NCBI RefSeq assembly: GCF_030264295.1
Contig: NZ_CP127173.1
Coordinates: 4,967,501 to 5,031,500, forward strand
Length of the DNA: 64,000 bases
Source of the DNA: Amycolatopsis nalaikhensis
GTDB taxonomy: Bacteria > Actinomycetota > Actinomycetes > Mycobacteriales > Pseudonocardiaceae
Direction of reading: 5' to 3'
The notes under the pieces were generated by a model, which ran no database searches, was not told where the DNA came from, and saw nothing but the letters and a program-made list of their open reading frames with translations. Shown here in pieces: positions 12,778 through 29,156 of the stretch (the stretch's first letter is position 1; every line of letters begins with the position of its first letter). The translations under genes and the position numbers were made by a program.

Positions 12778-13979
12778 GCCGCTTCCGCACGCAGCTCGCC
12801 GGGGTCGCCTTCCTCGGGGTGCTCGTCCTGCTCGGGTACCTCGCGGTGGCGATCTACGACAAGGACTTCGACGACGCCGAGCTGGTGACGCTGCGGACCG
12901 ACCGGGTCGGCAACCAGCTCGCCCCGACGGCCGAGGTGAAGGTCAAGGGCGTGCCGTTCGGCGAGGTCAGGGCGGTGCGCAGCACCCGGGCGGGCGCCGA
13001 GATCGACCTGGCGCTCGACCCGGCGAAGATCGGCCTGCTGCCCGGGAACGTCTCCGCCCGGCTGCTGCCCAAGACGGTCTTCGGCGAGCGGTACGTCAAC
13101 CTCGTGCTGCCCGGCCAGCCCCGCGGGTCGCTGCGCGCGGGCGACGTCATCGGGCAGGACCACTCGGCCAACGCCATCGAGCTGGAACGCGTGCTCGGCG
13201 ACCTGCTGCCGCTGCTGCGCGCGGTCCAGCCGCAGAAGCTGAACAGCTCGCTCGGCGCCATCTCCCAGGCCCTCGACAACCGCGGGACGCCGATCGGCGA
13301 CAGCATCGTCAAGCTGCAGGACCTGCTCGCCCAGGTGAACCCGCTGATGCCGCAGTTCAAGGCAGACATCACCGGCCTGGCCAACGCGGCCGACGTCTAC
13401 ACCGGGGCCGCACCGGACATCCTCCAGGCGCTGACCGACCTCTCGACCACGGCGAAGACCATTGTGGACACCCGCGCGGACCTCGACAACCTCTACACGA
13501 GTGTCACGAGTGCCACCGGGCACCTGAACGACTTCCTGCGGAAGAACAAGGACAACATCATCGGCGTCTCGGCCGAAAGCCGTCCGTCGCTCGAGCTGCT
13601 TTCCCGGTACTCGCCGGAGTTCCCGTGCCTGTTCGACGCGGTCAACCGGCTCAAGCCGCTGATGGAGAAGGCGCTCGGCAAGGGCACGAACGAGCCGGGC
13701 CTGCACGTGACCATCACCGTGCAGGACCCGCGCGAGAAGTACGTCCCCGGCCGCGACACCCCGCGGTTCGACGCCACCGGCGGCCCGAAGTGCTACGGCG
13801 GCGGGGCTGCGTCCGCGGGCGCCGCGTTCGCCACCGACGGCGACCTCGGCCCGGCGAACTCCCCGGGCGAACGGCAGCTCGTCGCCGAAATCCTCAAGCC
13901 CGCACTGGGTGCCGTGCCGGACTGGAGCAGCGTCCTGGTCGGCCCGGCGCTGCGGGGAACGGAGGTGACCGTCCGATGA
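12774..13979 (+). CDS. mceA: Mce protein A (MlaD-domain substrate-binding protein)
   Basis: 401 residues, ATG 12774 (ATGA overlap). One N-terminal membrane anchor (about 10-28), then an MlaD/Mce domain ('APTAEVKVKGVPFGEVRAV', 'FGERYVNLVLP') and a long helical region (about 120-300) that in Mce complexes forms the lipid-conducting tube. The tail after about 300 has two Cys and is polar. Position directly after YrbEB defines it as the A subunit. Imports lipids or sterols; the substrate cannot be read from sequence. Confidence 0.93.
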   Translation: MSRFRTQLAGVAFLGVLVLLGYLAVAIYDKDFDDAELVTLRTDRVGNQLAPTAEVKVKGVPFGEVRAVRSTRAGAEIDLALDPAKIGLLPGNVSARLLPKTVFGERYVNLVLPGQPRGSLRAGDVIGQDHSANAIELERVLGDLLPLLRAVQPQKLNSSLGAISQALDNRGTPIGDSIVKLQDLLAQVNPLMPQFKADITGLANAADVYTGAAPDILQALTDLSTTAKTIVDTRADLDNLYTSVTSATGHLNDFLRKNKDNIIGVSAESRPSLELLSRYSPEFPCLFDAVNRLKPLMEKALGKGTNEPGLHVTITVQDPREKYVPGRDTPRFDATGGPKCYGGGAASAGAAFATDGDLGPANSPGERQLVAEILKPALGAVPDWSSVLVGPALRGTEVTVR

Positions 13980-14992
13980 GGAGCGTCGTCGGCCCCGCCG
14001 TCAAGGGGCTCATCTTCTTCCTGGTCACCGCGGTCGCGACGGGGGTGCTCGCCATCACGATCGCGAACTCCAGTGTCGGCGCGACGATCGGCTACACCGC
14101 GCGGTTCACCGACGCGACGTCGGTCAACCCCGGCGACGAGGTCCGCATGGCCGGGGTCCGGATCGGCCAGGTCGACTCGGTGCGCGTGGTCGAGCACCGC
14201 CTCGCCGACGTCGCCTTCTCGGTCGACCGCACGCACCGGCTCACCGCGTCGGCCTCGGTCACCATCCGCTACCGCAACCTGGTCGGGCAGCGCTACCTCT
14301 CGGTCGACCCCGGGGCCACCGACACCTCGCCGACGCTGGCCGAGGGCGCGGAGATCCCCTTGGAGCGCACGAAACCCGCGCTCGACCTCACCGCGTTGTT
14401 CAACGGCTTCAAGCCGCTCTTCCAGGCGCTGTCGCCCAACGACGTCAACCAGCTGTCGTTCGAGATCATCCAGGTCCTGCAAGGGGAGGGCAGCACGATC
14501 GAAAGCCTGCTGCGGCACACCGCGTCGCTGACTTCGACCCTGGCCGGCAAGGACGCCGTCATCGGCCAGGTGATCGGCAACCTCAACACCGTGCTCGACA
14601 CCGTGAACGCACAGGGCGACCAGTTCGACGCGCTCGTCGACACGACCGCGCAGCTGGTCACCGGCCTCGCCGCGGACGCGAAGCCGATCGGGCAGGCCAT
14701 CGGCGGGCTCGGCGAGCTGACCACGGCCACCGCCGGGCTGCTGGACCAGGGGCGGCAGCCGCTCAAGGACAGCATCACCGCGCTCGGCGACCTGTCGAAG
14801 AACCTGGCCGACAACACGCCGGTGTTCCAGCAGTTCATCGACAACCTGCCGAAGAAGCTCGACCGCATCGGCACGCTCTTCTCCTACGGCTCGTGGGCGA
14901 ACTTCTACCTGTGCTCGGTGGAGACCGACGCGAAACCGGCCCCGGGCGGCCCTCCGCCGGGCATCCCCGTCACCGCGGCGAGGTGCCGGTGA
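13976..14992 (+). CDS. mceB: Mce protein B
   Basis: 338 residues, ATG 13976 (ATGA overlap). N-terminal anchor 'GLIFFLVTAVATGVLAITI', MlaD domain ('VNPGDEVRMAGVRIGQVDSV', 'VGQRYLSVDPG'), and a helical domain rich in heptad-like Leu/Val. It ends with 'GSWANFYLCSVE', a conserved tail of MceB/C subunits. Second subunit of the hetero-hexamer. Confidence 0.93.
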   Translation: MRSVVGPAVKGLIFFLVTAVATGVLAITIANSSVGATIGYTARFTDATSVNPGDEVRMAGVRIGQVDSVRVVEHRLADVAFSVDRTHRLTASASVTIRYRNLVGQRYLSVDPGATDTSPTLAEGAEIPLERTKPALDLTALFNGFKPLFQALSPNDVNQLSFEIIQVLQGEGSTIESLLRHTASLTSTLAGKDAVIGQVIGNLNTVLDTVNAQGDQFDALVDTTAQLVTGLAADAKPIGQAIGGLGELTTATAGLLDQGRQPLKDSITALGDLSKNLADNTPVFQQFIDNLPKKLDRIGTLFSYGSWANFYLCSVETDAKPAPGGPPPGIPVTAARCR

Positions 14993-15999
14993 AACCGCCC
15001 CGCATCAAGCCGTTCCGGTCCCGCAACCCGATCGTCGTCGGCGCGGTGACCGCCCTGGTCATGGCGTTGATCGGCAGCGCGACGTTCTTCTCCGACGACC
15101 TGCCGCTCATCGGCGGCGGCACCACCTACAAGGCCGAGTTCCACGAAGCGGCCGGGCTGAAGCCGAACGACGAGGTCCGCGTCGCCGGGGTGAAGGTCGG
15201 CGAGGTCACCGACGTGCGGCTCGCCGGGGACCACGTCGAGGTGCTGTTCCGGGTCAAGGACACCTGGGTGGGCAACCGGACCACCGCGGCCATCAAGATC
15301 AAGACGCTGCTCGGCCAGAAGAACCTCGTGCTCGACCCCGTCGGCAACGGCGAGCTGAACCCGGACCAGCCGATCCCGGCCGAGCGCACGAGCTCGCCCT
15401 ACGACGTCACCGACGTCTTCAACGACCTGGCGGGCACGGTCGGGGCGATCGACACCGACCAGCTCGCGCAGGCGTTCCGGGTGCTGTCCGACACGCTCGG
15501 CGCGTCGGCACCCAGCGACGTCAAGACGGCCTTCGACGGCATCGCCGCCCTGTCGCAAACGCTTGCGTCCCGCGACGACGAGCTGGTCAAGCTGTTCCAG
15601 AACACCAACCAGGTGGCCAAGACGCTCGGTGAACGCTCGGACCAGATCCAAGCCCTGATCCGCGACGGCAACACGCTGCTCACCGAGCTGAACGCCCGCA
15701 AGGACGCGATCGCGCAGCTGTTCAGCGGCATCAAGAACCTCTCGATCCAGCTGCGCGGGCTGGTCGCGGAGAACCAGAAGACGCTCGGCCCGGCGCTCGA
15801 CCAGCTCGACCGCGTCGCGACCGTGCTGCAGCGGAACCAGGGGAAGCTGGAGGACAGCCTGCGCCTGGCCGGCCCGTTCTACCGGCTGCTCGGCAACGCC
15901 GTCGGCAACGGCCGGTGGATCGACACCTACATCTGCGGGCTCATCCCCACCGGCAGCACGCCGGGCAGCTGCCTGCCGCCGAAGAACGGGGGACGCTGA
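14989..15999 (+). CDS. mceC: Mce protein C
   Basis: 336 residues. GTG 14989 overlaps the mceB stop (GTGA) with GAGG upstream; GTG 14983 would add two residues. Basic N-terminus and anchor 'VGAVTALVMALIGSATFF', MlaD domain ('LKPNDEVRVAGVKVGEVTDV', 'LLGQKNLVLDPVG'), helical tube domain, and C-terminal 'GRWIDTYICGLIPTGS'. Third subunit of the complex. Confidence 0.92.
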   Translation: MKPPRIKPFRSRNPIVVGAVTALVMALIGSATFFSDDLPLIGGGTTYKAEFHEAAGLKPNDEVRVAGVKVGEVTDVRLAGDHVEVLFRVKDTWVGNRTTAAIKIKTLLGQKNLVLDPVGNGELNPDQPIPAERTSSPYDVTDVFNDLAGTVGAIDTDQLAQAFRVLSDTLGASAPSDVKTAFDGIAALSQTLASRDDELVKLFQNTNQVAKTLGERSDQIQALIRDGNTLLTELNARKDAIAQLFSGIKNLSIQLRGLVAENQKTLGPALDQLDRVATVLQRNQGKLEDSLRLAGPFYRLLGNAVGNGRWIDTYICGLIPTGSTPGSCLPPKNGGR

Positions 16000-16997
16000 T
16001 GGCGCACCAGCTCATCGACCTCGGGGCCCGGGCCAAACGCCGGACCCGGCTGCGGGCGCTGACCCTCGGCGTCGTGGCCGCGCTGCTGGTCACGGCGGTG
16101 TGGCCGGTGCTGGCCGCGCCCCGGGACCGCACGTTGACCGCGTACTTCACCGCCGCCGTCGGCATCTACCCGAACTCGGACGTGCGCGTGCTCGGCGTCG
16201 CCATCGGGTCCGTGTCCGAAGTGGAACCCAACGGCACCGACGTCAAGGTGACCATGACGCTCAAGCCCGGTGTGCAGCTGCCCGCCGACGCCGGGGCCGT
16301 CGTGATCACGCCGAGCCTGGTCGCCGACCGGTACGTGCAGCTCACGCCCGTCTACCGCGGCGGCCCGGAGCTGGCCGACGGCGCGACGATCCCGCGCGAG
16401 CGCACGGCCACCCCGGTCGAGGTCGACGAGCTGCTGACCAGCCTCAACCAGCTGATGGGGGCGCTCGGGCCGAAGGGGGCCAACAAGGACGGCGCGGTCA
16501 GCGACGTGCTGACGAAGTCGGCCGAGTACCTCAGCGGCAACGGGCAGACGATCGGGACGGCGATCAAGAACCTCGGCGAGTTCGCCCGCGCGGCCAGCGA
16601 CTCGAAGGACGACTTCTTCGGCTCCATCGACAACATCAGCAAGTTCACCGCGATGCTCGCCGCCAACGACGGCCAGGTCAAGCAGGCCATCTCGCAGATC
16701 GCCTCGCTGAGCAAGGTCCTGGCCGACCAGCGCGACCAGTTCTCCGGCGCCCTGACCGAGCTGACCCAGGCGCTGAGCGTCGTGCAGGGGTTCATCAAGG
16801 ACAACCGCGGCAAGGTGCAGTCCGATGTGGACAAGCTCGCCGACGTCACGAAGGTGCTGGTGAACCAGAAGGACTCCCTCGCCGAAGCCCTCGACGCGGC
16901 CCCGAACGCCCTGACGAACCTGCTGGGTGCCTACGACAAGGCCAACGGGACCATCGACGGCCGCGGCAACCTCCTCGAGTTCCCGGAGCCGAAATGA
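15999..16997 (+). CDS. mceD: Mce protein D
   Basis: 332 residues, ATG 15999 (TGATG overlap). Anchor around 27-45 ('LGVVAALLVTAVWPVLAAP'), MlaD domain ('IYPNSDVRVLGVAIGSVSEV', 'LVADRYVQLTPVY'), then a long alpha-helical region. Fourth subunit; gene order A-B-C-D is the standard Mce order. Confidence 0.93.
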   Translation: MAHQLIDLGARAKRRTRLRALTLGVVAALLVTAVWPVLAAPRDRTLTAYFTAAVGIYPNSDVRVLGVAIGSVSEVEPNGTDVKVTMTLKPGVQLPADAGAVVITPSLVADRYVQLTPVYRGGPELADGATIPRERTATPVEVDELLTSLNQLMGALGPKGANKDGAVSDVLTKSAEYLSGNGQTIGTAIKNLGEFARAASDSKDDFFGSIDNISKFTAMLAANDGQVKQAISQIASLSKVLADQRDQFSGALTELTQALSVVQGFIKDNRGKVQSDVDKLADVTKVLVNQKDSLAEALDAAPNALTNLLGAYDKANGTIDGRGNLLEFPEPK

Positions 16998-17965
16998 AGG
17001 CCATGGTCAAGCTCGCCGCGGTCGTGACGCTCGCGCTGGTCACCACCGGCTGCGGGCGCGGGGTCAGCGTCTACGACATCCCGCTGCCCGGCGGCGCCGC
17101 CCTCGGCGACCACCCGATCCACGTCACCGTGCGCTTCACCAACGTGCTCGACCTGGTGCCGCAGTCCGGGGTCAAGGTCAACGACGTCCCGGTCGGGCAG
17201 GTCGTCAAGGTGGAGCTGGCGCCCGACGGGCACAGCGCGATCGTCGACCTGCTGCTCAACGGCGACGTCGACCTGCCGGGCAACGCGGTCGCCCGGCTGC
17301 GGCAGGCCAGCATCCTCGGCGAGAAGTTCGTCGAGCTGGCCCCGCCGGACGACGCGACGCCGTCGGGGCGCCTGCTCGACGGCGCGGACATCCCGCTGGA
17401 CCGGTCGACCCTGACGCCGGAGATCGAGGAGGTCTTCGGTGCCCTTTCGCTGCTGCTCAACGGCGGTGGCGTCGCGCAGGTCCAGAACATCAGCCACGAG
17501 CTGAACGACGCCCTCGGCGGTCGCGAGACCGCCGCCCGCAGCCTGCTGTCCAGTTTGGACACCTTCGTGCGGGGGCTCGACGAGCACCGGACCGAGATCA
17601 CCCGCGCCATCGAGAGCGTCAACAAGCTGGCGGAGACGCTGAACGCGCACACCGACCAGATCACCACGACGCTCAACGGCCTGACGCCCGGCATCGGTGT
17701 CCTCAACCAGCAGCGGGAGGCGCTGGTCGGGATGCTCAAGTCGCTCGACGGGCTGACCTCGGTCGCCGTCGACACCCTGCACAAGAGCAAGGACGACCTG
17801 GTCGCCGACCTGCGTGCGCTGGAACCGCTGCTGCGGAGGCTGGCCGACTCCGGGGACAAGCTGCCGAAGGCGATGGAGATGATCTTCACCTTCCCGTTCC
17901 CGGACGCCGCGCTCGACACGATCCGCGGGGACTACCTCAACGGGTTCCTGAAGGTGGGCCACTGA
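16994..17965 (+). CDS. mceE: Mce protein E, lipoprotein subunit
   Basis: 323 residues, ATG 16994 (ATGA overlap). Signal peptide ends in a lipobox 'LVTTGCGRG', so it is lipid-anchored, as MceE (LprK) proteins are. MlaD domain 'LVPQSGVKVNDVPVGQVVKV' and 'ILGEKFVELAPPD', then helical domain. Only subunit of the six with a lipobox. Confidence 0.94.
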   Translation: MKAMVKLAAVVTLALVTTGCGRGVSVYDIPLPGGAALGDHPIHVTVRFTNVLDLVPQSGVKVNDVPVGQVVKVELAPDGHSAIVDLLLNGDVDLPGNAVARLRQASILGEKFVELAPPDDATPSGRLLDGADIPLDRSTLTPEIEEVFGALSLLLNGGGVAQVQNISHELNDALGGRETAARSLLSSLDTFVRGLDEHRTEITRAIESVNKLAETLNAHTDQITTTLNGLTPGIGVLNQQREALVGMLKSLDGLTSVAVDTLHKSKDDLVADLRALEPLLRRLADSGDKLPKAMEMIFTFPFPDAALDTIRGDYLNGFLKVGH

Positions 17966-19071
17966 TGCTGACCCGGTTCGTGCGCGTGCAGGTGACGATC
18001 TTCGTCGTCATCGCGGTCGTCGGCGTCGCCTACGTCGGCGCCACCTACGCGGGCCTCGACAAGGTCTTCTTCGACCGCGGCTACACCGTGAAAGCCCAGT
18101 TCCCGACCGGCGGCGGCATCTTCACCAACGCCGAGGTCACCTACCGAGGCGTGCCGATCGGCCGCGTCGGCGAGCTGCGGCTCACGCCCGCCGGCATGGA
18201 GGCCGACCTCGAGATCGACTCCGGCACCGCGCCCGTCCCGGCCGACACCGAGGCCGTCGTCGCCGACCGGTCGGCCGTCGGCGAGCAGTACGTCGACCTG
18301 CGCCCGCGCACCGACGGCGGGCCGAAACTGCACGACGGCTCGGTGCTCACCCAGGCCGACACGAGGATCCCGCTGCCGGTGGACGTCGTCTTGTCGACAG
18401 TGGACTCGTTCGCCAACTCCGTGCCGAAGCCCGCACTGCGCACGGTCGTCGACGAGCTGTACAACGCGACGTCCGACGCCGGCCCGGCCCTCGACCAGCT
18501 CGTCGGCCGCGGCATCGAGTTCGTGCAGGCGGCCAGCGCGCACGTCGCGCCGCTGACCCGGTTCGTCACCGACGCGCACACCGTGCTCGACACCCAGGTG
18601 CAGCAGGCCGACGCGATCCGGTCGTTCGGTGCCAACGCGAAGCTGCTGGCGTCGACGCTGAAGCAGTCCGACGGCGACCTGCGCACCCTGATCCCGGCGG
18701 TCCCGGCGGCGGCGAACGAGGTCGGCGCGCTGATCCGCGACTCCGGGCCGCAGCTGGGCGTGCTGCTGGCGAACCTGCTGACCACCGCGGACGTCCTCGA
18801 GGCCCGTCAGGACGGCCTCCGCCAGCTGCTGATCACCGCACCCGAGGCGGTCGCCGCGGGCAGCGCGGTGGTCCGGCCGGACGGCGCGCACTTCGGGCTG
18901 TCGCTGACGTTCTTCGACCCGCCGCCGTGCACGACGGGGTACACGACGCCCTACCGCAACGGCCTGGACACCTCGACCCGCCCCTTCAACACGGCCGCGC
19001 GGTGTGCGCTGCCGAAGGGCGACCCGACGAACGTGCGGGGCTCGCAGAACGCACCGGGAGGACGGCCGTGA
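17965..19071 (+). CDS. mceF: Mce protein F
   Basis: 368 residues, ATG 17965 (TGATG overlap). N-terminal anchor 'VTIFVVIAVVGVAYVGATYA', MlaD domain ('FTNAEVTYRGVPIGRVGELR', 'AVGEQYVDLRP'), helical region and a Cys-containing tail ('PPPCTTGYTTPYRN', 'ARCALPKG'). Closes the mceA-F set. Confidence 0.94.
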   Translation: MLTRFVRVQVTIFVVIAVVGVAYVGATYAGLDKVFFDRGYTVKAQFPTGGGIFTNAEVTYRGVPIGRVGELRLTPAGMEADLEIDSGTAPVPADTEAVVADRSAVGEQYVDLRPRTDGGPKLHDGSVLTQADTRIPLPVDVVLSTVDSFANSVPKPALRTVVDELYNATSDAGPALDQLVGRGIEFVQAASAHVAPLTRFVTDAHTVLDTQVQQADAIRSFGANAKLLASTLKQSDGDLRTLIPAVPAAANEVGALIRDSGPQLGVLLANLLTTADVLEARQDGLRQLLITAPEAVAAGSAVVRPDGAHFGLSLTFFDPPPCTTGYTTPYRNGLDTSTRPFNTAARCALPKGDPTNVRGSQNAPGGRP

Positions 19072-19565
19072 GGATTTTGCTGTGGGTGGCCACGATCGTG
19101 GCGACGGCGGCGGCCGGGTGGTCCGGGTTCACCTGGTGGCAGGCGGCGCACGACGACGGCGTCGCGCGCGCGGTGGTCCGGGAGGACGCGCTGGCCGCGG
19201 GCCGGACCGCGGTCGCCGGACTGACCACTTTGGACTACCGGCAGGCCGCGCCCGGGTACCAGCACTGGCTGGACCTCTCGGGCGGCCCGCTGCACGACGA
19301 GCTGGCCGCCGACCGCCAGGGCAGCCTCGACCGGATCGCGCAGGCGAAGACCGTCACCACCGGCAAGGTGACCGACGCCGCGGTGACCGAAGTGGACACC
19401 GGCGCGGGCACGGCGAAGCTGATCGCGTCGGTCGAGCTGGTCGTGACACCCGAAGGCGGCGACGCCGTGACGAAACGCAACCGGTTCCAGGCCGACCTCA
19501 CCCGCGGGCCCGACGGCTGGCGGGTCACCGGGCTGGGCCAGGTCCCGACGGGGGAGACACCGTGA
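19068..19565 (+). CDS. Mce-associated membrane protein 1
   Basis: 165 residues, GTG 19068 (GTGA overlap) with GGGAGG upstream. One N-terminal membrane helix ('LLWVATIVATAAAGWSGFTW') and an external NTF2-like alpha/beta domain ending 'DGWRVTGLGQVP'. Mce-associated (Mas) proteins of this shape follow mceF in most actinobacterial operons and help stabilise the transporter. It is cytoplasm-in, domain-out by charge distribution. Confidence 0.88.
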   Translation: MRILLWVATIVATAAAGWSGFTWWQAAHDDGVARAVVREDALAAGRTAVAGLTTLDYRQAAPGYQHWLDLSGGPLHDELAADRQGSLDRIAQAKTVTTGKVTDAAVTEVDTGAGTAKLIASVELVVTPEGGDAVTKRNRFQADLTRGPDGWRVTGLGQVPTGETP

Positions 19566-20179
19566 AGGCAGCGACGAAGAAGCGCTCGGTGAAGGTCGCG
19601 GGCCGCCACCACGACGCCGACTCCCAAGACCCTCGTGAGTGGCGATTGGGGTTAGAACCCGAATCGCCACTCACGACCACCAGCCGACCCCAGCTCAAAG
19701 TGGGGCTCGGGGTGGTCGCCCTTCTGATGACCGCTCTCGCCGTGTGGTTCACCCTCGAAGCGCGCGGCACCAACGCCGTCGTCGCGCACAACACCGCGCT
19801 TTCCGACGTCGCGGGCACCGCGGAAGCCGGGAAGCAGGTCAGCGCCGCGCTCGGCACGCTCTTCTCCTACCGCTACGACGATCCGGCGAAGAACGAACGG
19901 GCGGCGAAAGACCTCCTCAGCGGCCCCGCGCTCGCCCAGTACGACCAGCTCTTCGGCCAGGTCCGGAAGCTCGCCGCCGACCAGAAACTCGTGGTCGCTT
20001 CGACCGCCGTCGCCTCCGGCGTGAAACTGCTCGACGGCGACCGCGCGGCGCTGCTCGTCTTCCTCGACCAGACCGGCACGAGAGGCGACGGGCAGCGCAG
20101 CACCGGCGCCGCTCAATTGAGCGTCACCGCCGAGCGCGTGGCCGGGAAGTGGCGCGTCACCGGGATGTCCGCCGCGTGA
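19562..20179 (+). CDS. Mce-associated membrane protein 2 with palindrome-encoded N-terminal segment
   Basis: 205 residues from GTG 19562 (GTGA overlap). Basic cytoplasmic tail, membrane helix about 48-68 ('VALLMTALAVWFTLEARG'), and external NTF2-like domain ending 'GKWRVTGMSAA', like the preceding protein. Residues about 24-39 are encoded by a 44-bp near-perfect palindrome of the kind normally found between genes. An in-frame GTG at 19700 would exclude it but has no ribosome-binding site, so I prefer 19562. It is the last gene of the Mce operon. Confidence 0.82.
   Translation: MKAATKKRSVKVAGRHHDADSQDPREWRLGLEPESPLTTTSRPQLKVGLGVVALLMTALAVWFTLEARGTNAVVAHNTALSDVAGTAEAGKQVSAALGTLFSYRYDDPAKNERAAKDLLSGPALAQYDQLFGQVRKLAADQKLVVASTAVASGVKLLDGDRAALLVFLDQTGTRGDGQRSTGAAQLSVTAERVAGKWRVTGMSAA
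19633..19676. repeat. Family C palindrome inside a coding sequence
   Basis: Arms of 21 bp at 19633-19653 and 19656-19676 are complementary with one mismatch (outer arm TCGTGAGTGGCGATT). The element stays in frame through the N-terminal tail of the second Mce-associated protein. It has the form of an intergenic palindromic element or terminator hairpin. Confidence 0.85.
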
Positions 20180-20324
20180 TTGTCACCGTGACAACAGCCG
20201 CCGCCGAGCGCGCAGTGAGCGGAATGACAAAGTATTTCCGCGCATTCTGCGATTCGTTGACAGGGATTCTCGGCGGGAAATACGGTGAATCACCGGTCCG
20301 CCGCGAGAAATGCGCGAGGAATCC

Positions 20325-21737
20325 ATGCTCACGAGTTCTGAACGGGTCGGCGGCTGGCACGTCGCCGGTACCGGCGCCACCACGCTGTCGACACTCCTGA
20401 CCGCCCGCGCGGCGGCCGACGGCGACCGGGTGGCGCTGACCTGGTTCGGCTTCCGCGCCGCCGCGGCGACCACGCTCACCTGGGCGGAACTGGACCGCCG
20501 GGTCACCGCGGTGGCCGCGGCGCTGCGGCAGGTCACCGAGCCGGGGCAGCGGGCGGCGGTGCTCATCGCGCCGTCCGCCGACCACGTCGTCGCGGTGCTC
20601 GCCGTGGTCCGGGCCGGCCTGGTCGCGATCCCGCTGCCCCCGCGGAGCCCGGCGGCCATCGCCGACGCCGGGCCCGTGATCGTGCTGGCGACGGCGGACA
20701 CCGTGGCCGCCACCCGCCGTTTTCTGTCTACTTTGGACACGTGTGGGCACCGGGTGCTGGCCGTCGACGCCGTCGAGGACGCGCCGGGTTTCACCGAGGA
20801 CCCGGTGGCCGCCGAGGACGTCGCCTACCTGCAGTACCCGGCCGGGGTGATGGTCACGCACGCCAACGTGGTGGCCAACGCCCGGCAGACGGCCGCCGTG
20901 CTGCAGGGGCGGACGGTCCTGAGCTGGCTGCCGCCGACCGATCCGCTCGGGCTGCTGCTCGCCATCGCCGTGCCGATCGTCTCCGGGCGGTCCGCGGTGC
21001 TCGTCGACCGGCGGGACCTCCTGGCCGAGCCCGCCCGCCTGCTTGCGGACCCGGCGCTGCGCGACATCGGCACCTTGGTGGCCGACACCGATCCGGACCT
21101 GGCCCGGCTTCTGGGCGCGTTACCGTCCGACGCGCGGCGGGTGTGTCACGTCCTGGCCGAGGCGACGGCTGTGGTCACCGCGGCGGGCGTCCCCGCCGGG
21201 CAGCGGATCGCGATCGTCGACCCCGGTGGGCGGCGCGTGCCCGACGGCGAACCCGGCGAAATCTGGATCAGCGGACCGAACATCGCCCGTGGCTACTGGC
21301 AGCGGCCCGAGGAGTCGGCTCACGTCTTCTGCGCCCTGATCACCGGCGACGACGAGCCGCGGTGGTGGCTGCGCTCCGGCGACCTCGGCTTCCTCGACGA
21401 ATCGGGCGAGCTGCACGTCACCGGCCGGTGCGCGGACCTCGTGGCCGGGCACCACCCGGGCGACCTCGAGGCGACGGCGGCCGAGGCGCACCCGGCGGTG
21501 GGTTCGGCGACCGCCTTCAGTGTCGGCGACGCGCAGGCCGTGATCGTGGCCGAGCTGGCCGACGGCGTCGTCCCACCGGCTCGCGGGGAGGTCGAACGGG
21601 CCGTCCGGGCCGCGGTGTCGGCCGCGCACGAGCTCGTCCCGCACCGAGTCGTCGTGGTGCCGCCGGGCGGGCGGCCGCCGGAGCGGGCGCGGTGCCGGGA
21701 CCGGTTCGCCGCCGGTCTGCTGGACGGCTCGCGGTGA
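20325..21737 (+). CDS. FadD32-like fatty acyl-AMP ligase homologue lacking the ATP P-loop
   Basis: 470 residues from ATG 20325 (GAGGA just upstream), shorter than the roughly 580 of FAALs. Homology is visible in 'YLQYPAGVMVTHANVVAN', 'LSWLPPTDPLGLLLAI', 'LAEATAVVTA', 'EIWISGPNIARGYW', 'RSGDLGFLDESGELHVTGR' and 'EATAAEAHPAV'. The phosphate-binding TSGSTG-type motif expected between Tyr171 and Pro172 is absent, the segment between 'DRRDLLAEPARLL' and 'LAEAT' is shortened, and the C-terminal catalytic Lys region (usually SGKLRR-like) reads 'ERARCRDRF'. As written it should not adenylate. It overlaps the PKS start (GTGA), the FAAL-PKS pairing seen for fadD32-pks13. Confidence 0.8.
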   Translation: MLTSSERVGGWHVAGTGATTLSTLLTARAAADGDRVALTWFGFRAAAATTLTWAELDRRVTAVAAALRQVTEPGQRAAVLIAPSADHVVAVLAVVRAGLVAIPLPPRSPAAIADAGPVIVLATADTVAATRRFLSTLDTCGHRVLAVDAVEDAPGFTEDPVAAEDVAYLQYPAGVMVTHANVVANARQTAAVLQGRTVLSWLPPTDPLGLLLAIAVPIVSGRSAVLVDRRDLLAEPARLLADPALRDIGTLVADTDPDLARLLGALPSDARRVCHVLAEATAVVTAAGVPAGQRIAIVDPGGRRVPDGEPGEIWISGPNIARGYWQRPEESAHVFCALITGDDEPRWWLRSGDLGFLDESGELHVTGRCADLVAGHHPGDLEATAAEAHPAVGSATAFSVGDAQAVIVAELADGVVPPARGEVERAVRAAVSAAHELVPHRVVVVPPGGRPPERARCRDRFAAGLLDGSR

Positions 21738-24602
21738 ACGACCCCGAACGGCTCCGCCGCTGGCTCGCCGAGCGGATCGCCGGGCTCGCCGGGCTTCCGG
21801 TGGAGGTGGTCGAGGCGGGTGTCCCGCTCGCCGAACTGGGACTTTCCTCGCGGGACGCGGCCGTGATCGCGGCCGAGCTGGGGGAGCTGCTCGGCCGCGA
21901 ACCCGACTTCGGCCTGCTCCGGCGGTACCCGTCGATCGCGGCGCTGGCCGAGGCGCTCGCGGCCGCCGGGCCGCGGCCCCGGGCCGGTGACCCGGTCGCG
22001 GTGATCGGCCTCGGCTGCCGCCTGCCCGGCGGGATCTCCTCACCCGGCGAGCTGTGGCGTGCCCTTCTGGCCGGCGCGGACGTGGTCGGTGCCGTGCCCG
22101 CCGACCGCCGCCCGTGGGCCGAGGGACCCCGGCACGGCGCGTTCCTCACCGACGTCGCCGGGTTCGACGCCGCTTTCTTCGGGATCGGCGCGGCCGAAGC
22201 CGCGGCCATGGACCCGCGGCAGCGGATCGTCCTCGAGACGACGTGGGCCGCGCTCGAACACGCCGGGATCGCCCCCGGCACGCTGCGCGGCACCCGCACC
22301 GGTGTGTTCGCGGGCGTTTCGGCCGTGGAGTACGTGTCTTCCGGGTCGGCGTCGATGATCGCGAACCGGGTGTCGGACCGGTTCGACCTGCGGGGGCCGA
22401 GCTTGGTCGTGGACACCGCGGACTCGGCGGCGCTGGTCGCCGTCCACCACGCGGTGCGCGCGCTGACCGCGGGGGAGGCGGACCTGGCGCTGGCCACCGG
22501 CGTCCACCTGCTGCTCGCGCCGCCGGTGGCCGCCGCGTTCGCCCCGGACGGCCGGACGAAGGCGTTCGCCGCGGCCGCCGACGGCATCGTGCCCGGCGAG
22601 GGCTGCGGTGTCGTGGTCCTGAAGCGGCTCGCCGACGCCCGCCGCGACGGCGACCGCGTGCTGGCCGTCGTCCGGGGCAGCGCGGTCGGCTCGGACGGCC
22701 GTGCCACCGGCCCGGCGGCGCAGCAGCAGGTGCTGGCCGACGCGCACGCCGTCGCGGGCTCCGATCCCGCCACTGTGGACTACGTCGAGGCGCACGGCAC
22801 CGGGACACCGCTGGCGGACGCGGTCGAAGCGCAGGCCCTCGACGTCGTGCTCGGCCGCCACCGCGACCCGCGGCGGCCGCTGCTGCTCGGCTCGGCCAAG
22901 ACCGGCTTCGGTCACCTCGAAGGCGCCGCCGGGATCCTCGGCCTGGTCAAGGTGGTGCTGGCGCTCTGGCACGACCGGATCCCGCCGTCGCTGCACTTCG
23001 CCGAGCCGAGCCCGCGCATCGACTTCAGCAGGCTGACCGTGGTGGACCGGGCGGTGGACTGGCCCCGCTACGGCGGCACCGCGCGCGCCGGCGTCTCGGC
23101 GTTCGGCGCCGGCGGGACCAACGCGCACGTCGTGCTCGAAGAGTGGCCGAGGCCCCTCGAACCGGCCGCGCCGGCGTCGCGGTGGAACGGCAGGCCGCAG
23201 GTGTTCACGGTGTCGGCCAAATCGGAGACCGCGTTGCGCCGCCGGGCGGGCGACCTCGCGGACTGGCTCGCCGGGCCCGGCCGGGCCACCGCGCCGGGTG
23301 ACCTGGCCGCGGCGCTCGCCCGGCGCCGGGAGCCGCTGCCGCTGCGGGCCGCCGTCGTCACCGCGTCCCGCGCCGCTTTGACCGCGGGCTTGCGGGCCGT
23401 GGCCGATGGCGGGACCACGGCGGACGTCGTGCGGGGCACGGCCGGGCGCGAGCTGCCGCGCCCGGTCTTCGTCTTCTCCGGGTGCGGTTCGCCGTGGCCG
23501 GTGCTGGGACGGCGGCTGCTGAGCGCCGAGCCGGAGTTCCGGGCCGCGGTGGCCGAGCTGGAACCGGTTTTCCTGGCCAAAGCCGGGTTCTCGCTGCGGG
23601 CCGCGTTGCGGGGGCGGCAGGCGAACTGCGGTGATCCGGCCGTGGTGCTGTTCGGCACGCAGGTCGCCCTCGCGGCGTGGTGGCGGGCCCACGGCGTCGA
23701 GCCCGCCGCGGTGCTCGGCCACTCGACGGGCGAGGTCGCCGCGGCGGTCGTCGCGGGCGCCCTGGACGTCGCGACCGGGCTCGACATCGTGATCGGCTGG
23801 GCGGAAGGGCTGGCGGAACGGTCCGAAGGTGCGACGGCGGTCGTCGAGCTGTCCGCGGCCGAGGTGTCCGCACGGTTCCCGGACGTCACGGTCGTGGCGT
23901 ACGACTCGCCGACGCACTGCACGGTCAGCGGGCGCGCCGAAGACATCGCCGTGGTTCTGTCCGAAGTGGACGGTCAGCGGGTCGCGGCGTGGCGTTGCAC
24001 CCCGGTCGACGCCGCCCGGTTCCGCGCCGGACTCGGCGAGCCGCGGCCACCGGCGACGACCTGCTACTCGAGCGCGCTCGACGACCCGCGCGCCGTGCCC
24101 GCCTTCGACGCGGACCACTGGGCGGCCGCCGCGGCCGGGCCGGTCCGGTTCGCCCAGGCGGTCGCCGCCGCGATCGCCGACGGGCACCGCTGGTTCGTCG
24201 AGGTTTCCCCGCACCCGATCGCGCTCGCGGCCGTCGAACGGACCGCCGCGGCGGCCGGGGTGGCGGTGCGGACGCTGGCGACGTTGAGCCGTCGAGAGCA
24301 CGAAGAAAACGCTTACGCGCGTTCGCTGGCCGAGCTGCACGTCGCCGGGTACCCGGCGGTGCTCGACCGGCGGTACCCGGAAGCGCCGGTGCTCGACCTG
24401 CCCCCGCCGCCGTGGGACCACCGCAGCTTCCGGCCGCCGCGCCCGGCGCTCGGCCACCCGCTGCTCGGCACCCGCGTCGAGGTGCCGGAGGAGGGCAGGC
24501 ACCTGTGGCAGGCGGCGATCGCGCCGGACGCGCCCGCGTGGCTCGGCGAGCACCGGGTGCACGACGTCCCGGTGTTCCCGGCGACCGGGTACCTCGAGCT
24601 TC
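21734..24602 (+). CDS. Pks13-like synthase, 5' part: ACP-KS-AT-DH start (frameshifted, catalytic residues replaced)
   Basis: Starts at GTG 21734 (GTGA overlap). ACP at residues 1-75 with Ser39 in 'LGLSSRDA', the motif I recall from the N-terminal ACP of Pks13. KS at about 85-470 ends 'DWPRYGGTARAGVSAFGAGG', also Pks13-like; His354 and His394 are present, but the nucleophile is Asp230 ('VDTADSAALVAV') and a loop before 'SMIANRVS' is shortened. AT at about 575-790 keeps Ser664 ('GHSTGE') but the HTxxM motif reads 'CTPVD' (Cys755 for His). The dehydratase N-half begins about 905 with 'GEHRVHDVPVFPATGYLEL'. Homology then jumps frame at 24599-24605; read without a shift, this frame ends at 25450 in unrelated sequence. 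Confidence 0.8.
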
Positions 24603-24605
24603 TTC
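24599..24605 (+). other. Frameshift point in the Pks13-like gene
   Basis: Homology runs in one frame through 'GYLEL' (Leu codon CTT at 24599) and resumes one base later with 'FLAGARELLGTDRV' (TTC at 24603). One extra base in CTTCTTCC accounts for it. CTT codons are rare in this DNA. A sequencing error, a true mutation or a +1 frameshift event are all possible. Confidence 0.8.
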
Positions 24606-27128
24606 CTCGCGGGCGCCCGCGAGCTGCTCGGCACCGACCGCGTCCGGGTCGACGGCCTGGCGGTCCACCGGCTGCTCGCCGTCACCGGGGAAACCCTGCT
24701 GAGCACGGAAGTCCGGGCGGACGGCACCGCGGTCGTGCGGGCCAAAGCCGGGGCGGGCTGGGTGCGGCACGCGACGGCGTGGGTGTCGGCCGACACCGAC
24801 CCCGCACCGCCTGCTCTGTCCGAAGTGGACGCGACGATCGAGGGGCCGGAGTTCCGCGGCCTGCACTCGGTCCGGATCGCCGACGGTCGCGTCTCCGCGT
24901 CGGTGTCGCCCGCCCCGCCGGGCTATGTGCTTCACCCGGTCCTGGCCGACAACTGCCTGCGCGCGCTCGCCGCCGTCCTGCCCGGCGACGCGGCGGAAGC
25001 CCGTCTGCCGGCCGGGTTCGGCCGGGTCCGGCTGCTCGGCGACCCGCGCCGGGGCATCCGGTGCGAGGCCGCGCGCACCGGCGGCGTGGTCCAGCTGCTC
25101 GACGCGGACGGCGCGGTCGTGGCCGACTTCGGCGACGTCCGCTTCGAGGCACTCACCGGCGTCCCGCTCGCCGCCCGCGCGTTCGGGACGAGCTGGCCCG
25201 AGGTGCCGCTGCCGCCCGGTCCGCCCGGGGAGCCGGGCTCGTGGCTGCTGCTCACCGACGAGCACCCGGTCGCGCTCGGCCGGGCCGTGGCGTTGGCGCT
25301 GGCCCTCGCCGAAGCCGGCGACGAGGCGCTTTCCCTGCCGCAGGACGACCTCGACGAGCTGCCCGGGCTCCTCGCCGACCGGCCGGTGCGCGGCGTCGTG
25401 TTCCTCACCGGGGCACCGCACGCCTACCACGACCCGGAGGACGCCCGTGACCTGCTGCGTGCGGTGCTGTCGGTGGTCGCCCGCCTCGGCGACGGCGTCC
25501 GGCTCCACCTGGTCGCGCAGTCCGGTGGCGAGCCGGGGCTGGCGTTCGTGCGCGGGCTCGTGCGGGTGCTCGCCTTCGACCGGCCGGGCCTGCGGGCGAG
25601 CCTCGTCGACTTCGACGCGCGGTCCGATGTGGACGTTCTGGCGCGGGAACTGCGTGCGGACGCGCCCGACGACGAGGTGCGCTGGCGCCGCGGCGTCCGG
25701 TACGCGGCGAGGCTGGCCCGCGTGCCGCTGGTCGACGGCGTCGCGACCGGGCCAGGCGCCTACGTCGTCACCGGCGGGTTCGGCGCACTGGGCCTGGCCA
25801 CCGCGCGCTGGCTGGCCGAGCACGGCGCCACCCGGATAGTCCTCTGTGGACGTCGTGGGGGCGACGTCCGGCTGTCCGGAGTGGACGTCGTGGTGGTCGC
25901 CGGGGACATCGCCGAGGCCGGAGTCGCGGACCGGCTGGTCGCCGCCGCGACCGCGGACGGCTTGCCGTTGCGCGGGATCGTCCACGCGGCCGCGGCCGGC
26001 GACGACGTCGAAGCCACCTGGCGGCCGAAGGTGCTCGGCGCGCGGCGGCTGCACGAGGCGACCGCCGACTCGCCACCGGACTGGTGGCTGACGTACGCGT
26101 CGGCGGCGGCGTTGTTCGGTTCGCCGGGACGGACCGCCGTCGCGACGGCGGACGCCTGGCTGGAGGCGTTCGCGCGGTGGCGGCGGTCCCGGGGCCTGCC
26201 CGCGACGACGGTGCACTGGGGCGCGTGGACGGCGGACCCCGTGCTGGACTCGATGCCGGTCGCGGAAGGCCTCGACGCCCTGCCCGCGGTGCTCGCGTCA
26301 GACCTGCCGTCGGTCGGGATCGCGCGCCTCGACGTCGGCCGCGCGGCCGGGCTCCTCCCGCGTCGGCCGTTCTTCTCGGCCCTCCAGGCGGACGTGCAGC
26401 CGTCACCGGCCGGTGGCACCCCGCACGAGCGGCTGGCCGTCCTCTTCGCCGGGCTGCTGGGCTGCCCGCCCGGCGCGGTCGCCCCCGACGTGCCGCTGGT
26501 CGAGCTGGGCCTCGACTCCTTGACGGCGACGCGCGCGCGGGCCGCGGTCGAGCGCGAGTTCGGCGTCGCGCTGCCGGTGCCGCTGCTGCTGCGCGGCGCC
26601 GACCTGGACGACCTGGCCGAGTACGTGACGAGCCCGGCCGAGCCGGTGCGTGCGGCCCCGCGGGTGCTGCGGGAAGGCGAGGGCACGCCGGTGCTGCTCT
26701 TCCCGTCCGCCGGGCACGTCGCGCTGGTGGAACACCTGACCGTCCCCTGCTACGGCTTCGAGCCCCTCGGCCCGGAGCGGTGCGTCGAACTCCTGCGGAC
26801 GGTCCAGCCGACCGGGCCCTATCGCCTCGGCGGCGGACTGCTCGCCTTCGAGGTCGCGGTGCGGCTGACCGCGCTCGGCGAGCGCGTCGACGTCGTAGTG
26901 CTCGTGGACGCGACCCCGCCCGCGACACCGATGCCGCCGTACCCGGGCCGCGTCGTGCTGTTCCACGCCGAGGACGACGCCGCGCTCGGCTGGGCCGCGT
27001 GCTGCGCCGACCTGCACGTCGAAGTCGTGCCGGAGGACGCCGAGGCGCTGGCCCGGCGCCTCGCGGCCGAGCTGGCCGGGCACCCGAGTCCCGGCGCCAC
27101 CCCCGTGTCGACCCTGGAGGAGCCGTGA
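24603..27128 (+). CDS. Pks13-like synthase, 3' part: DH-KR-ACP-TE remnants
   Basis: Continues the synthase after the frameshift. The rest of the DH is degenerate. A KR structural domain leads into the NADPH fold 'VVTGGFGALGLATARW', with Lys in 'KVLGARRLHEAT', but the Tyr/Asn pair of the active site is replaced: 'GSPGRTAVATADAW' has Val at 26139 where Tyr belongs. A second ACP has an intact Ser at 26517 ('LVELGLDSLTATRAR'). The thioesterase-like end reads 'GPYRLGGGLLAFEVAVRL': the GxSxG nucleophile elbow is missing by a short deletion, and the expected His segment is absent. Pks13 itself has no KR or DH, so domain content is extended compared with it. Ends in GTGA overlap with the esterase. 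Confidence 0.78.
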   Translation, partial: FLAGARELLGTDRVRVDGLAVHRLLAVTGETLLSTEVRADGTAVVRAKAGAGWVRHATAWVSADTDPAPPALSEVDATIEGPEFRGLHSVRIADGRVSASVSPAPPGYVLHPVLADNCLRALAAVLPGDAAEARLPAGFGRVRLLGDPRRGIRCEAARTGGVVQLLDADGAVVADFGDVRFEALTGVPLAARAFGTSWPEVPLPPGPPGEPGSWLLLTDEHPVALGRAVALALALAEAGDEALSLPQDDLDELPGLLADRPVRGVVFLTGAPHAYHDPEDARDLLRAVLSVVARLGDGVRLHLVAQSGGEPGLAFVRGLVRVLAFDRPGLRASLVDFDARSDVDVLARELRADAPDDEVRWRRGVRYAARLARVPLVDGVATGPGAYVVTGGFGALGLATARWLAEHGATRIVLCGRRGGDVRLSGVDVVVVAGDIAEAGVADRLVAAATADGLPLRGIVHAAAAGDDVEATWRPKVLGARRLHEATADSPPDWWLTYASAAALFGSPGRTAVATADAWLEAFARWRRSRGLPATTVHWGAWTADPVLDSMPVAEGLDALPAVLASDLPSVGIARLDVGRAAGLLPRRPFFSALQADVQPSPAGGTPHERLAVLFAGLLGCPPGAVAPDVPLVELGLDSLTATRARAAVEREFGVALPVPLLLRGADLDDLAEYVTSPAEPVRAAPRVLREGEGTPVLLFPSAGHVALVEHLTVPCYGFEPLGPERCVELLRTVQPTGPYRLGGGLLAFEVAVRLTALGERVDVVVLVDATPPATPMPPYPGRVVLFHAEDDAALGWAACCADLHVEVVPEDAEALARRLAAELAGHPSPGATPVSTLEEP

Positions 27129-27880
27129 AGAGAGCCGTGGCACTGGTCGTGCTGCTGATCGCCGCGACGCTGGGCGGGGTGAGCACGGCGTCGGCCGACG
27201 ACGGCGCCCGCGTCACCGCCGAGAACCGCGTCGACGAGCGGACCCTGGACCTGACGATCTCGTCCCCGGCGCTGGGCACGACCGCGCCGGTGCGGGTCCT
27301 GCTGCCGCGGTCGTACGCTCAGGAGCCGTCGCGGACCTGGCCGGTGCTGTACCTGCTGCACGGCTGCTGCGAGGACAAGGACTACCAGTCCTGGGACTAC
27401 TTCACCGACGTCAAGGCGTTCACCGCGGACCAGGACGTCATGGTCGTGATGCCGAGCGACGGCCGCGCCGGGATGTATTCGCAGTGGTGGAACTTCGGGC
27501 TGAGCACGAAGCCGGACTGGGAGACCTTCCACACGGTGGAGCTGCCGCAGCTGCTCGAACGCGGCTACCGCGCGGGCACCACGCGCGCGGTGGCGGGCCT
27601 GTCGATCGGCGGCTACGGGGCGCTGGCGTACGCGTTCCGCCACCCGGGGATGTTCCGCGCGGCGGCGTCGTTCAGCGGCGTCCCGAACACGCTGCAGTTC
27701 GGCGTGCCCGAAGTGATCCAGGGCATCCTGCTGCGCGAGGGTCTGAGCTTCTACGCGTTGTGGGGCAACCAGTATTCGACGCCGTGGCTGTGGTCGGCCC
27801 GCAACCCGTACGGGCCTGGCCGCTGCTGTCGGCGTCCCTCGGCCTCGTGCGCTGAAGGGGACTTTCCTCGCATCACATGA
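27125..27880 (+). CDS. Antigen-85/mycolyltransferase-like secreted esterase, C-terminally truncated
   Basis: 251 residues from GTG 27125 (GTGA overlap). Signal peptide about 1-24 ('LVVLLIAATLGGVSTASADD'). Esterase-D fold: 'PVLYLLHGCCEDKDYQSW', 'VVMPSDGRAGMYSQWW', nucleophile Ser160 in 'GLSIGGYGAL', 'AASFSGVPNT'. After 'WLWSARNPYG' homology stops and about 20 unrelated residues run into the family A repeat; the Asp/Glu and His of the triad should lie in the missing part. Antigen 85 transfers mycolates to trehalose or arabinogalactan in mycolate producers; neighbours resembling FadD32 and Pks13 suggest the same ancestral pathway. Probably inactive as encoded. Confidence 0.75.
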   Translation: MKRAVALVVLLIAATLGGVSTASADDGARVTAENRVDERTLDLTISSPALGTTAPVRVLLPRSYAQEPSRTWPVLYLLHGCCEDKDYQSWDYFTDVKAFTADQDVMVVMPSDGRAGMYSQWWNFGLSTKPDWETFHTVELPQLLERGYRAGTTRAVAGLSIGGYGALAYAFRHPGMFRAAASFSGVPNTLQFGVPEVIQGILLREGLSFYALWGNQYSTPWLWSARNPYGPGRCCRRPSASCAEGDFPRIT

Positions 27881-27928
27881 GCTGAAGGGGACGTTCGTCG
27901 CATCACATGCACTGAACGTCCCCTTCAG
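27852..27928. repeat. Family A inverted repeat between convergent genes
   Basis: Two direct copies of CTGAAGGGGAC..TCGCATCACATG (27852 and 27882) are followed by the inverted CTGAACGTCCCCTTCAG (27912-27928). It is related to the element at 6648-6724. It supplies the last codons and stop of the truncated esterase and faces the 3' end of the PucR gene at 27963. Likely bidirectional terminator. Confidence 0.85.
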
Positions 27929-27962
27929 CCCGCGTCCGGTGGGCGACCGCGCGTTCGATGGG

Positions 27963-29156
27963 TCAGGTGAGCGTCGCCCGCAGGGCGAGGATCATCTCGA
28001 AGCGGTCGTCCGGATCCCGCAGGCTGTCCGCGAAGAGGGCCTCCAGCTCCTGGGCCCGGGCGCGGACCGTCTGCGGGTGGATCGCCAGCCGGTCGGCGAC
28101 CTCGCGGACGTTGCCGCACGTCTCCAGCCACGCCAGCAACGTCCCCGCCAGGCGGTTGTACTGCTTCGGCGTCAACGCGGTCAGCGGGCCGAGGCGGCGC
28201 CGGGTCACCTCCGCGGCGAGGAACGGCTCCTTGCGCAGCCACAGCGTCGCGAGGTGGTCTTCGCACCAGGTCAGCGGCTCGTCCGGGAGGACGTCCGGCA
28301 CCAGCCGCAACGCCTCCTGCGCCGTCGCCAGCGACCGGCCCGCCTGCCGCGGCGGGACCGGCGGCCCGACCGCGGCCCGGTGCCCGGCCAGGGCCGCGGT
28401 GAGCGGAGCCCGGTCCGACGGCGCGGGCAGCAGCAGCCGCGGCGTCCCGTCTTCGAGGTCCTCCAGCGCGTCCAGGCCCGAGACGTCGGCCGGGCCGTCG
28501 AGAGCCACCGCGACCAGCCTGTGCGGCAACGGCCACTCCGCCGCCGCGGCGGCTTCCTGCACCGTGCGCGACGGCGACGGCGGGTCCGCCAGCAGCAGGT
28601 CCAGCAACCGGCGGCGACGCCGTTCCAGCGCGCCCGCCGCGCGCGCCTGCGCCGCCGCGTGCCCTTCGATCGACAACGCGGACAGCTCGTCGATGTAGGC
28701 GAAGATGGCCTCGGCGAGCAGGCACAACGTCGCCGACGGCACGCCCGCCCGCGTCCCCACCTCGGCCATCCGCCGCCACGTCACGCGCGCGCCGACGCGG
28801 TAGGCCGCCTGCAGGACGTCGAGGTTGCGGCCCTGCGCGAGTTCGTGCACACCGAGCCCGACGAACACCTTCCGGCGCTCGTCCGGCAGCGGGCCGGACG
28901 CCGCGATCCGGTCGATGAACTGCAGGATCGCCGCCTGCACGCCCGCCCGCAGCGCCTTGCCGAAGGCGCCGTCGAGCGGCCGCGCGTAGTCCGGGATGGT
29001 CCGCTGGATCTCCCGCAGCACTTCGTCGGCGACGTCGAGCATCCGCGGCCGGAACACCGCGGCCAGCTCGCGGGGGAGCATGGCCCACAGCTGTCCCGGC
29101 CGTCCGTCGCCGCCGAGCATCGGTCCGAAGGTCGTTTCGCCGGACGGTCCCGTCAC
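27963..29156 (-). CDS. PucR-family transcriptional regulator 1
   Basis: 397 residues, GTG 29156. N-terminal helical sensor region ('LPRELAAVFRPRMLDVADEV', 'EAIFAYIDELSALSIEGHAA'), a central CdaR-like GGDEF-type domain, and the C-terminal PucR helix-turn-helix: 'TLLAWLETCGNVREVADRLA' then 'IHPQTVRARAQELEALF'. PucR proteins bind DNA as activators or repressors of nearby catabolic or envelope genes. It sits 28 bp downstream of a paralogue on the same strand, so the two are probably co-transcribed. Target genes cannot be read from sequence. Confidence 0.88.
   Translation of the reverse strand: MTGPSGETTFGPMLGGDGRPGQLWAMLPRELAAVFRPRMLDVADEVLREIQRTIPDYARPLDGAFGKALRAGVQAAILQFIDRIAASGPLPDERRKVFVGLGVHELAQGRNLDVLQAAYRVGARVTWRRMAEVGTRAGVPSATLCLLAEAIFAYIDELSALSIEGHAAAQARAAGALERRRRRLLDLLLADPPSPSRTVQEAAAAAEWPLPHRLVAVALDGPADVSGLDALEDLEDGTPRLLLPAPSDRAPLTAALAGHRAAVGPPVPPRQAGRSLATAQEALRLVPDVLPDEPLTWCEDHLATLWLRKEPFLAAEVTRRRLGPLTALTPKQYNRLAGTLLAWLETCGNVREVADRLAIHPQTVRARAQELEALFADSLRDPDDRFEMILALRATLT

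Follow-up and report, generated by a model that had tools for sequence, protein, structure and literature searches.

Predicted pseudoenzymes derived from a FAAL-PKS-esterase locus beside the Mce genes of Amycolatopsis

The genes for a FadD32-like ligase, a polyketide synthase (PKS), and a truncated esterase that lie behind the Mce gene set of Amycolatopsis nalaikhensis represent, as judged from sequence comparison, one of the long-form members of a pseudoenzyme lineage within Amycolatopsis and not a single decaying relic. The window (the whole stretch of 64,000 nucleotides that was analyzed) comes from a genome of 10.67 Mb in one contig (contamination estimate, 5.33). The first-pass annotation had proposed a search for orthologous loci in related genomes, and these were found in 22 of the 80 Amycolatopsis genomes searched, in the same place behind the mce and mas genes. 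The reading that we favor, with moderate confidence, is that a pseudoenzyme pair, consisting of the ligase remnant psiFAAL and the ketoreductase remnant psiKR, has been kept beside the Mce transporter and probably serves it as a cytosolic adaptor or regulator, which makes these proteins candidates for a new accessory of that transporter. FadD32, Pks13, Ag85, and Mce are already known; the pseudoenzyme lineage itself appears to be new.

Organization of the locus in the window

The gene order in the window is two YrbE genes, six mce-type genes, two Mas-like genes, ligase, synthase, esterase, and a convergent regulator (Table 1); the upstream YrbE, mce-type, and Mas-like genes, recognized by Pfam and by position, bear out the earlier placement of the set behind Mce genes. 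No carboxyltransferase gene was seen in the window locus. The remaining mce ORF markers were placed by position, and some of them are perhaps in an overlapping frame; the “PucR” and “mceE” locus markers probably are ORFs that overlap real genes in another frame and mark places, not genes, the PucR-type regulator being Pfam-confirmed in the window alone. The Pfam search gave no match for mas1 or mas2, whose position behind the mce genes is the same as that described in PMC1810536. Inspection by eye of the stretch between mas2 and psiFAAL picks out a promoter-like arrangement (TTGACA, 18 nt, TACGGT); a promoter consensus scan of this stretch detected none.

Table 1. Features of the Mce-linked locus, in window coordinates
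Feature	Position	Strand	Basis
Pair of YrbE permease genes (MlaE-type) that opens the Mce gene set	11053..12777	+	Pfam PF02405, E 2.3e-63 and 6e-62
Six mce-type genes	12570..19071	+	Position; Pfam MlaD/Mce4_CUP1 on three
MceF, last mce-type gene	17965..19071	+	
mas1, small Mas-like	18927..19565 (ORF bounds, true start unsure)	+	Position
mas2, small Mas-like	19562..20179	+	Position
Stretch between mas2 and psiFAAL	20175..20335	+	Conserved across five long copies
psiFAAL, FadD32-like ligase without P-loop and catalytic Lys stretch	20310..21737	+	Pfam, Foldseek, alignment
Synthase, first open frame: ACP1, KS (Cys to Asp), AT, start of DH	21734..25450	+	Pfam, alignment
Synthase, second open frame: rest of DH, KR, ACP2, TE without elbow	24735..27128	+	Pfam, alignment
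psiKR core, Tyr to Val	25239..26210	+	Inside second synthase frame
Truncated secreted Ag85/PS1-like esterase	27125..27880	+	Structure matches to PS1, Cmt1, Ag85
PucR-type HTH regulator, convergent, boundary gene outside the finding	27963..29156	-	PF13556, E 1.3e-15

The window psiFAAL has the ANL fold and is FAAL-like (PF00501, E 1.4e-36; Foldseek match to FAAL 7r7e, E 6.9e-31), with a score against the NCBIfam FAAL_FadD32 model (169 bits) that is far below the cut-off of 975. Alignment confirmed that this ligase lacks its P-loop and revealed that the SGK stretch is gone too. The segment that holds TSGSTxxP in relatives is absent between YLQY and PAGVMVTH, with the junction at 20837, and both the TSGST-like ATP P-loop and the C-terminal catalytic Lys (SGK) are missing from the window and from all 13 aligned psiFAAL sequences. 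The KR and FAAL folds nevertheless appear to remain, since the AlphaFold models, although of modest confidence, match FAAL structures in the case of the window psiFAAL (mean pLDDT 70.7, pTM 0.64) and KR structures in the case of the psiKR of L136 (mean pLDDT 69.5, pTM 0.71).

The synthase is not one open frame: the earlier description missed a single change of frame near 24.6 kb, which none of the other four long copies shows, all of them being open. In the window, homology stops near 24600 in the first frame, whose remainder is out of register, and starts near 24600 in the second. The synthase of the window may be coming apart in the direction of the short form, may be newly broken, or may contain a sequencing error. 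Across the two frames, Pfam recovers the domain order ACP-KS-AT-ACP-TE with an extra DH-KR added, and these domain findings go beyond chance, because Pfam detects the domains and the losses recur in orthologues. The KS nucleophile codon at 22421 is indeed GAC (Asp), and both KS His residues (22793 and 22913) are kept; the KS Cys is lost in all five long copies. With respect to the AT His, reported to be Cys, the loss is real but it is not a plain exchange: the aligned window sequence lacks some ten residues on either side of and including this position. At 26832, the elbow with the TE Ser is missing, in agreement with its reported deletion, and the TE Ser is lost in four long copies, the fifth (L119) having no TE. 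Both ACP Ser residues stay, as had been noted (the first at 21845 or 21848 and the second at 26517). The earlier phrase “catalytic centres removed” goes too far for the AT, DH, and ACP domains, which keep the AT Ser, DH His, and ACP Ser. Several in-frame GDLADWLAGPGRGT-like repeat units are present in the dead synthase of L122, and a proline-rich insert, likewise in frame, is found in that of L121.

The ketoreductase region retains its fold (PF08659, E 4.3e-38, in the window; Foldseek match to KR 4dif, E 7.2e-16, for the L136 psiKR), and its catalytic Tyr is Val at 26139, just as first read; this Tyr is absent in all 22 members of the lineage. Three residues are also missing from the glycine-rich cofactor loop in 12 of the 22 psiKR sequences (L122 and L135-L145), and the loop is altered in L121. 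In the lineage, median identity is higher in the structural than in the catalytic half of the KR (79 versus 73%, 231 pairs), which is the reverse of the pattern in five A-locus synthases (61 versus 74%, 10 pairs; see below for these loci). No such inversion was found by dN/dS (structural half, 0.34; catalytic half, 0.31).

The esterase keeps its Ser (27602), diverges from around 27812, and lacks the C-terminal part present in L120, which agrees with the reported truncation; it is not a complete hydrolase with C-terminal catalytic residues. No esterase match was obtained within the stretches read of the other 21 loci of the lineage. A short repeat and a palindrome (CTGAAGGGGAC...GTCCCCTTCAG) occupy positions 27855-27945 of the window, where the esterase end would lie, and other palindromes are found in L149 and L150, in the interval from mas2 to the regulator.

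Distribution of related loci

The loci read among the 80 Amycolatopsis genomes fall into an A-locus, a B-locus, and the dead lineage. The A-locus, of which five were read (L124-L128), comprises a ligase, a synthase, and an Ag85-like esterase, with no Mce gene set recognized in the five stretches. The window genome itself has one A-locus, L124, in which the ligase, KS, AT, KR, and TE motifs are all present by alignment. Its ligase and synthase are paralogous to those of the window locus (38 and 53% identity, respectively). A carboxyltransferase gene was identified in L126, where it lies between the FAAL-PKS pair and the Ag85-like esterase (L126:14517-17215).

The Mce-linked B-locus was found outside the dead lineage in seven deeper genomes, its motifs being called from alignments, which show motifs that a regular-expression scan missed. 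The B-locus of G031 (L120) keeps the ligase, KS, and AT motifs and the TE Ser, and its KR Tyr and TE His are replaced by His and Gln, respectively; the alignment shows no ACP there that carries the LGLDS motif. Given these KR and TE changes and the lack of an aligned LGLDS ACP, no fully intact B-locus was found. In G004, G058, G001, and G011, the synthase is trimmed, the KS Cys being kept in G004 only and the AT Ser being lost in all four. The ligases of these four genomes and of G031 have both the P-loop and SGK. No synthase is present in the stretches read of G028 and G036. The ligases of these two genomes (L155 and L156, respectively) are full length and Mce linked, with the P-loop and SGK letters replaced, not deleted, which makes this a second mode of ligase inactivation, unlike the first.

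The dead lineage consists of five long loci (the window, L118, L119, L121, and L122) and 17 short ones (L129-L145) that keep the KR region. In the short loci, the KS, AT, ACP, and TE are gone, and a psiKR of approximately 330 to 420 aa is left together with psiFAAL, with a remnant of it, or on its own. The psiFAAL is complete in ten short loci, represented by a large part in two (L138 and L139), and reduced to a short remnant in two (L135 and L144); in the remaining three, psiKR is either located directly behind mas2 (L141 and L143) or joined to the start of psiFAAL (L129). The psiFAAL is also gone, except for a leader, from two long loci, L119 and L122. A further locus, L146 (G023), stops at a contig edge within psiFAAL and is left out of these counts. 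In the tree, all 22 psiKR rows fall into a single clade (support 100/100), within which 16 short rows (L130-L145) form a subclade (98/97), with L129 (G006) outside it.

The distribution was also followed along MceF identity. MceF proteins that are at least 91% identical are encoded in 25 of the 80 genomes, 22 of which have psiKR; G023 is the one cut off, and G032 and G012, with near-identical Mce genes, show no part of the locus behind mas2. In the group with 78 to 82% identity (20 genomes), none of the four loci read (G020, G022, G024, and G042) has it, and at 67 to 73% identity, the ligase is present in all seven genomes. Outside Amycolatopsis, among 200 genomes of the family drawn from a larger group, scores above 600 bits were obtained in G000 and G051 only, all others being at most 302. 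One frame of 682 aa outside Amycolatopsis contains a KR match (G189:C51:907036-907839) and is possibly another shortened synthase.

Purifying selection on the remaining proteins

The conclusion that the remaining proteins have been retained as coding sequence under purifying selection is well supported. Open frames had been judged weak evidence in G+C-rich DNA, a doubt that is answered here by shifted-frame controls, indel phase, and gene junctions. The NG86 dN/dS ratios have medians of 0.40 for psiFAAL (range, 0.20 to 0.52; 78 pairs) and 0.33 for psiKR (range, 0.11 to 0.54; 231 pairs), and reading these codons in shifted frames gives medians of 1.35 to 2.09 (78 and 230 pairs). Constraint on psiFAAL and psiKR falls short of that on the intact paralogue and on the Mce genes (0.16 to 0.28 in 10 pairs for the A-locus synthase over its N-terminal part, 0.15 for MceF, 0.21 for mceC, and 0.22 for mas1 and mas2). 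Calculated per domain, as the first-pass annotation had advised, the ratios for the long copies (six pairs) run from 0.27 for KR through 0.29 for KS, 0.34 for AT, 0.37 for both ACP1 and ACP2, and 0.38 for DH to 0.57 for the TE remnant, which on these values is near relaxed.

Gaps between long copies mostly come in multiples of three: 30 of 33 between the window and L118, 31 of 34 between the window and L122, 17 of 21 between the window and L119, 38 of 44 between L118 and L121, and 15 of 17 between L119 and L122. The lower share between the window and L121 (32 of 51) is perhaps due to the repeat insert in L121. At the gene junctions, overlaps of stop and start are kept or formed anew while the ligase shrinks. 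In L119 and L122, the ligase is cut to leaders of 38 and 36 codons, respectively, counted from the ligase start, and each leader ends in a stop that overlaps the start of the synthase. The short loci lack the stretch between mas2 and the ligase, and their psiFAAL, where present, begins just behind mas2; an overlap of the mas2 stop with the start of psiKR is seen in L141 and L143.

The main rival explanation regards the B-locus as a slowly decaying pseudogene series whose frames are open through G+C richness and recent decay. It is consistent with the stepwise losses, with the complete absence of the locus from G012, G032, and the four loci read in the 78 to 82% MceF group, with the frame change and truncated esterase of the window, with the relaxed TE remnant of the long copies, and with dN/dS ratios above those of the intact paralogue. 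However, the ligase losses are common to 13 genomes, and low dN/dS, in-frame indels, and gene overlaps nonetheless persist. In a simple neutral simulation of the KR frame (400 lineages) with an assumed indel rate of 5%, the frame was kept in none of 400 lineages at d 0.2 and in 5 of 400 at d 0.1; without indels, 121 and 179 of 400, respectively, stayed open. A decaying series seems unlikely. Between the relic and the non-catalytic scaffold that had been offered as alternatives, the relic fits the frame change and truncated esterase of the window, but the scaffold better fits the wider evidence of 22 genomes with frames under purifying selection. The two marks of a conserved pseudoenzyme, shared catalytic loss and subsequent purifying selection, are both apparent in these alignments.

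That the frames stay open for the sake of a polar downstream gene was considered and rejected for most loci: when the 21 loci other than the window were scanned for ORFs with a composition filter, 13 had no forward ORF after psiKR. The same scan showed forward ORFs of odd composition in three loci (L119, L136, and L138) and a shared forward ORF of 237 to 272 aa in five (L130-L134), where polarity on the downstream gene may play a part. In the window, psiKR is followed by the esterase remnant.

Order of losses and proposed function

The loss of the KR Tyr is probably older than the lineage, since this residue is gone from all its 22 members and from G031, G004, G001, and G011 as well. The ligase P-loop and SGK, in turn, were probably lost on the branch leading to the dead lineage, since they are intact in the five B-locus ligases from G031, G004, G058, G001, and G011 and missing from every psiFAAL aligned. 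With this order of losses, selection within the lineage would have acted on a ligase and a KR that already were without these residues. The losses of the KS Cys and TE Ser are judged from the long copies alone.

In the mechanism that we propose, an Mce-linked FAAL-PKS-esterase set would first have lost KR chemistry and then, on the lineage branch, ligase chemistry, while the paralogous A-locus with intact motifs stayed elsewhere in the same genome. Most of the synthase domains would later have been deleted, leaving psiKR, with or without psiFAAL, directly behind the Mce genes. There, psiKR (with psiFAAL where present) could serve as a cytosolic non-catalytic adaptor or as a lipid-responsive, acyl-sensing regulator of the Mce transporter. 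Such a role is suggested by position and by the overlaps with mas2; psiFAAL and psiKR are presumed to be expressed, and an operon with the Mce genes is assumed from gene spacing. A bolder version, to which we give less credence and which we regard as only a tentative possibility, is that a line for the activation and condensation of fatty acids has been converted stepwise across species into a dedicated non-catalytic Mce component of one or two proteins, with the window as a long intermediate.

It is also conceivable that the long copies are a residual partial enzyme, whose AT, DH, and ACP domains could still be loaded with an acyl group and carry it, with no condensation to follow. Among the five long copies, the AT Ser, DH His, and ACP2 Ser are retained throughout, the ACP1 Ser in four, and the AT His in three (L118, L119, and L121). 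Against this, the AT His is absent from the window and L122, the window frame changes between AT and ACP2, and none of these domains was found in the 17 short loci, which argues that AT, DH, and ACP are not the conserved function; we consider a partial enzyme quite improbable. An assembly or sequencing artefact as the cause of the missing window motifs is excluded by their recurrence in other species (among the matches listed, A. pretoriensis DSM 44654, L046), even though the frame change near 24.6 kb is here indistinguishable from a sequencing error.

Comparison with known systems

FadD32, Pks13, and AccD4, together with antigen 85, form the mycolate condensation set. The window locus resembles it in the order of ligase, synthase, and esterase and in structure matches, which for the ligase are to FAAL/FadD32, for ACP-KS to Pks13, and for the esterase to PS1, Cmt1, and Ag85. 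To this extent, the structure matches support the homology proposed earlier. The synthase, however, differs in its extra DH-KR, and its KS-AT and KR are nearer to mycobacterial lipid PKSs other than Pks13: among solved structures, mycocerosic acid synthase gives the best match to KS-AT (E 2.5e-161), and the KR is closer to Pks2, so the sequence is not closest to Pks13. The Pks13 structure matches over ACP-KS (about 5e-148, aligned from residue 6 on), and the second frame, on which alone the NCBIfam Pks13 model was run, scores 45.5 bits against a cut-off of 2100. A further difference from the mycolate set is the loss of the ligase, KS, KR, and TE residues. The A-locus (L124 and L126) shares with the window a paralogous ligase and synthase followed by an Ag85-like esterase, but it differs in the motifs present in L124, the carboxyltransferase gene of L126, and the absence of a recognized Mce set. 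These loci point to a FadD32-Pks13-AccD4-Ag85-like set whose motifs are intact, although the genus is described in PMC5859366 as lacking mycolic acid.

The literature searched, mostly papers available without subscription, contained no description of a dead Mce-linked FAAL-PKS lineage. Pseudoenzymes in general keep their fold, lose catalysis, and remain under purifying selection, and psiFAAL and psiKR appear to do the same; to our knowledge, none is known that descends from a FAAL-PKS pair or that accompanies Mce genes. Nonelongating KS and other degenerate domains also occur inside working PKS lines, where dead domains are likewise kept in frame. There, however, the whole megasynthase works, whereas in this lineage the ligase, KS, KR, and TE have changed, and the majority of domains were later deleted. 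The graded series within one genus, from the Mce-linked FAAL-PKS-esterase locus of G031, by way of dead long-form synthases, to a small protein that stems from the ketoreductase, allows the reuse of megasynthase domains as non-catalytic parts to be tested. Elsewhere in the window, an additional PKS-type gene with KS, AT, and DH domains detected by Pfam is located near the start (484-4494), and an extra KS match lies just upstream of the window.
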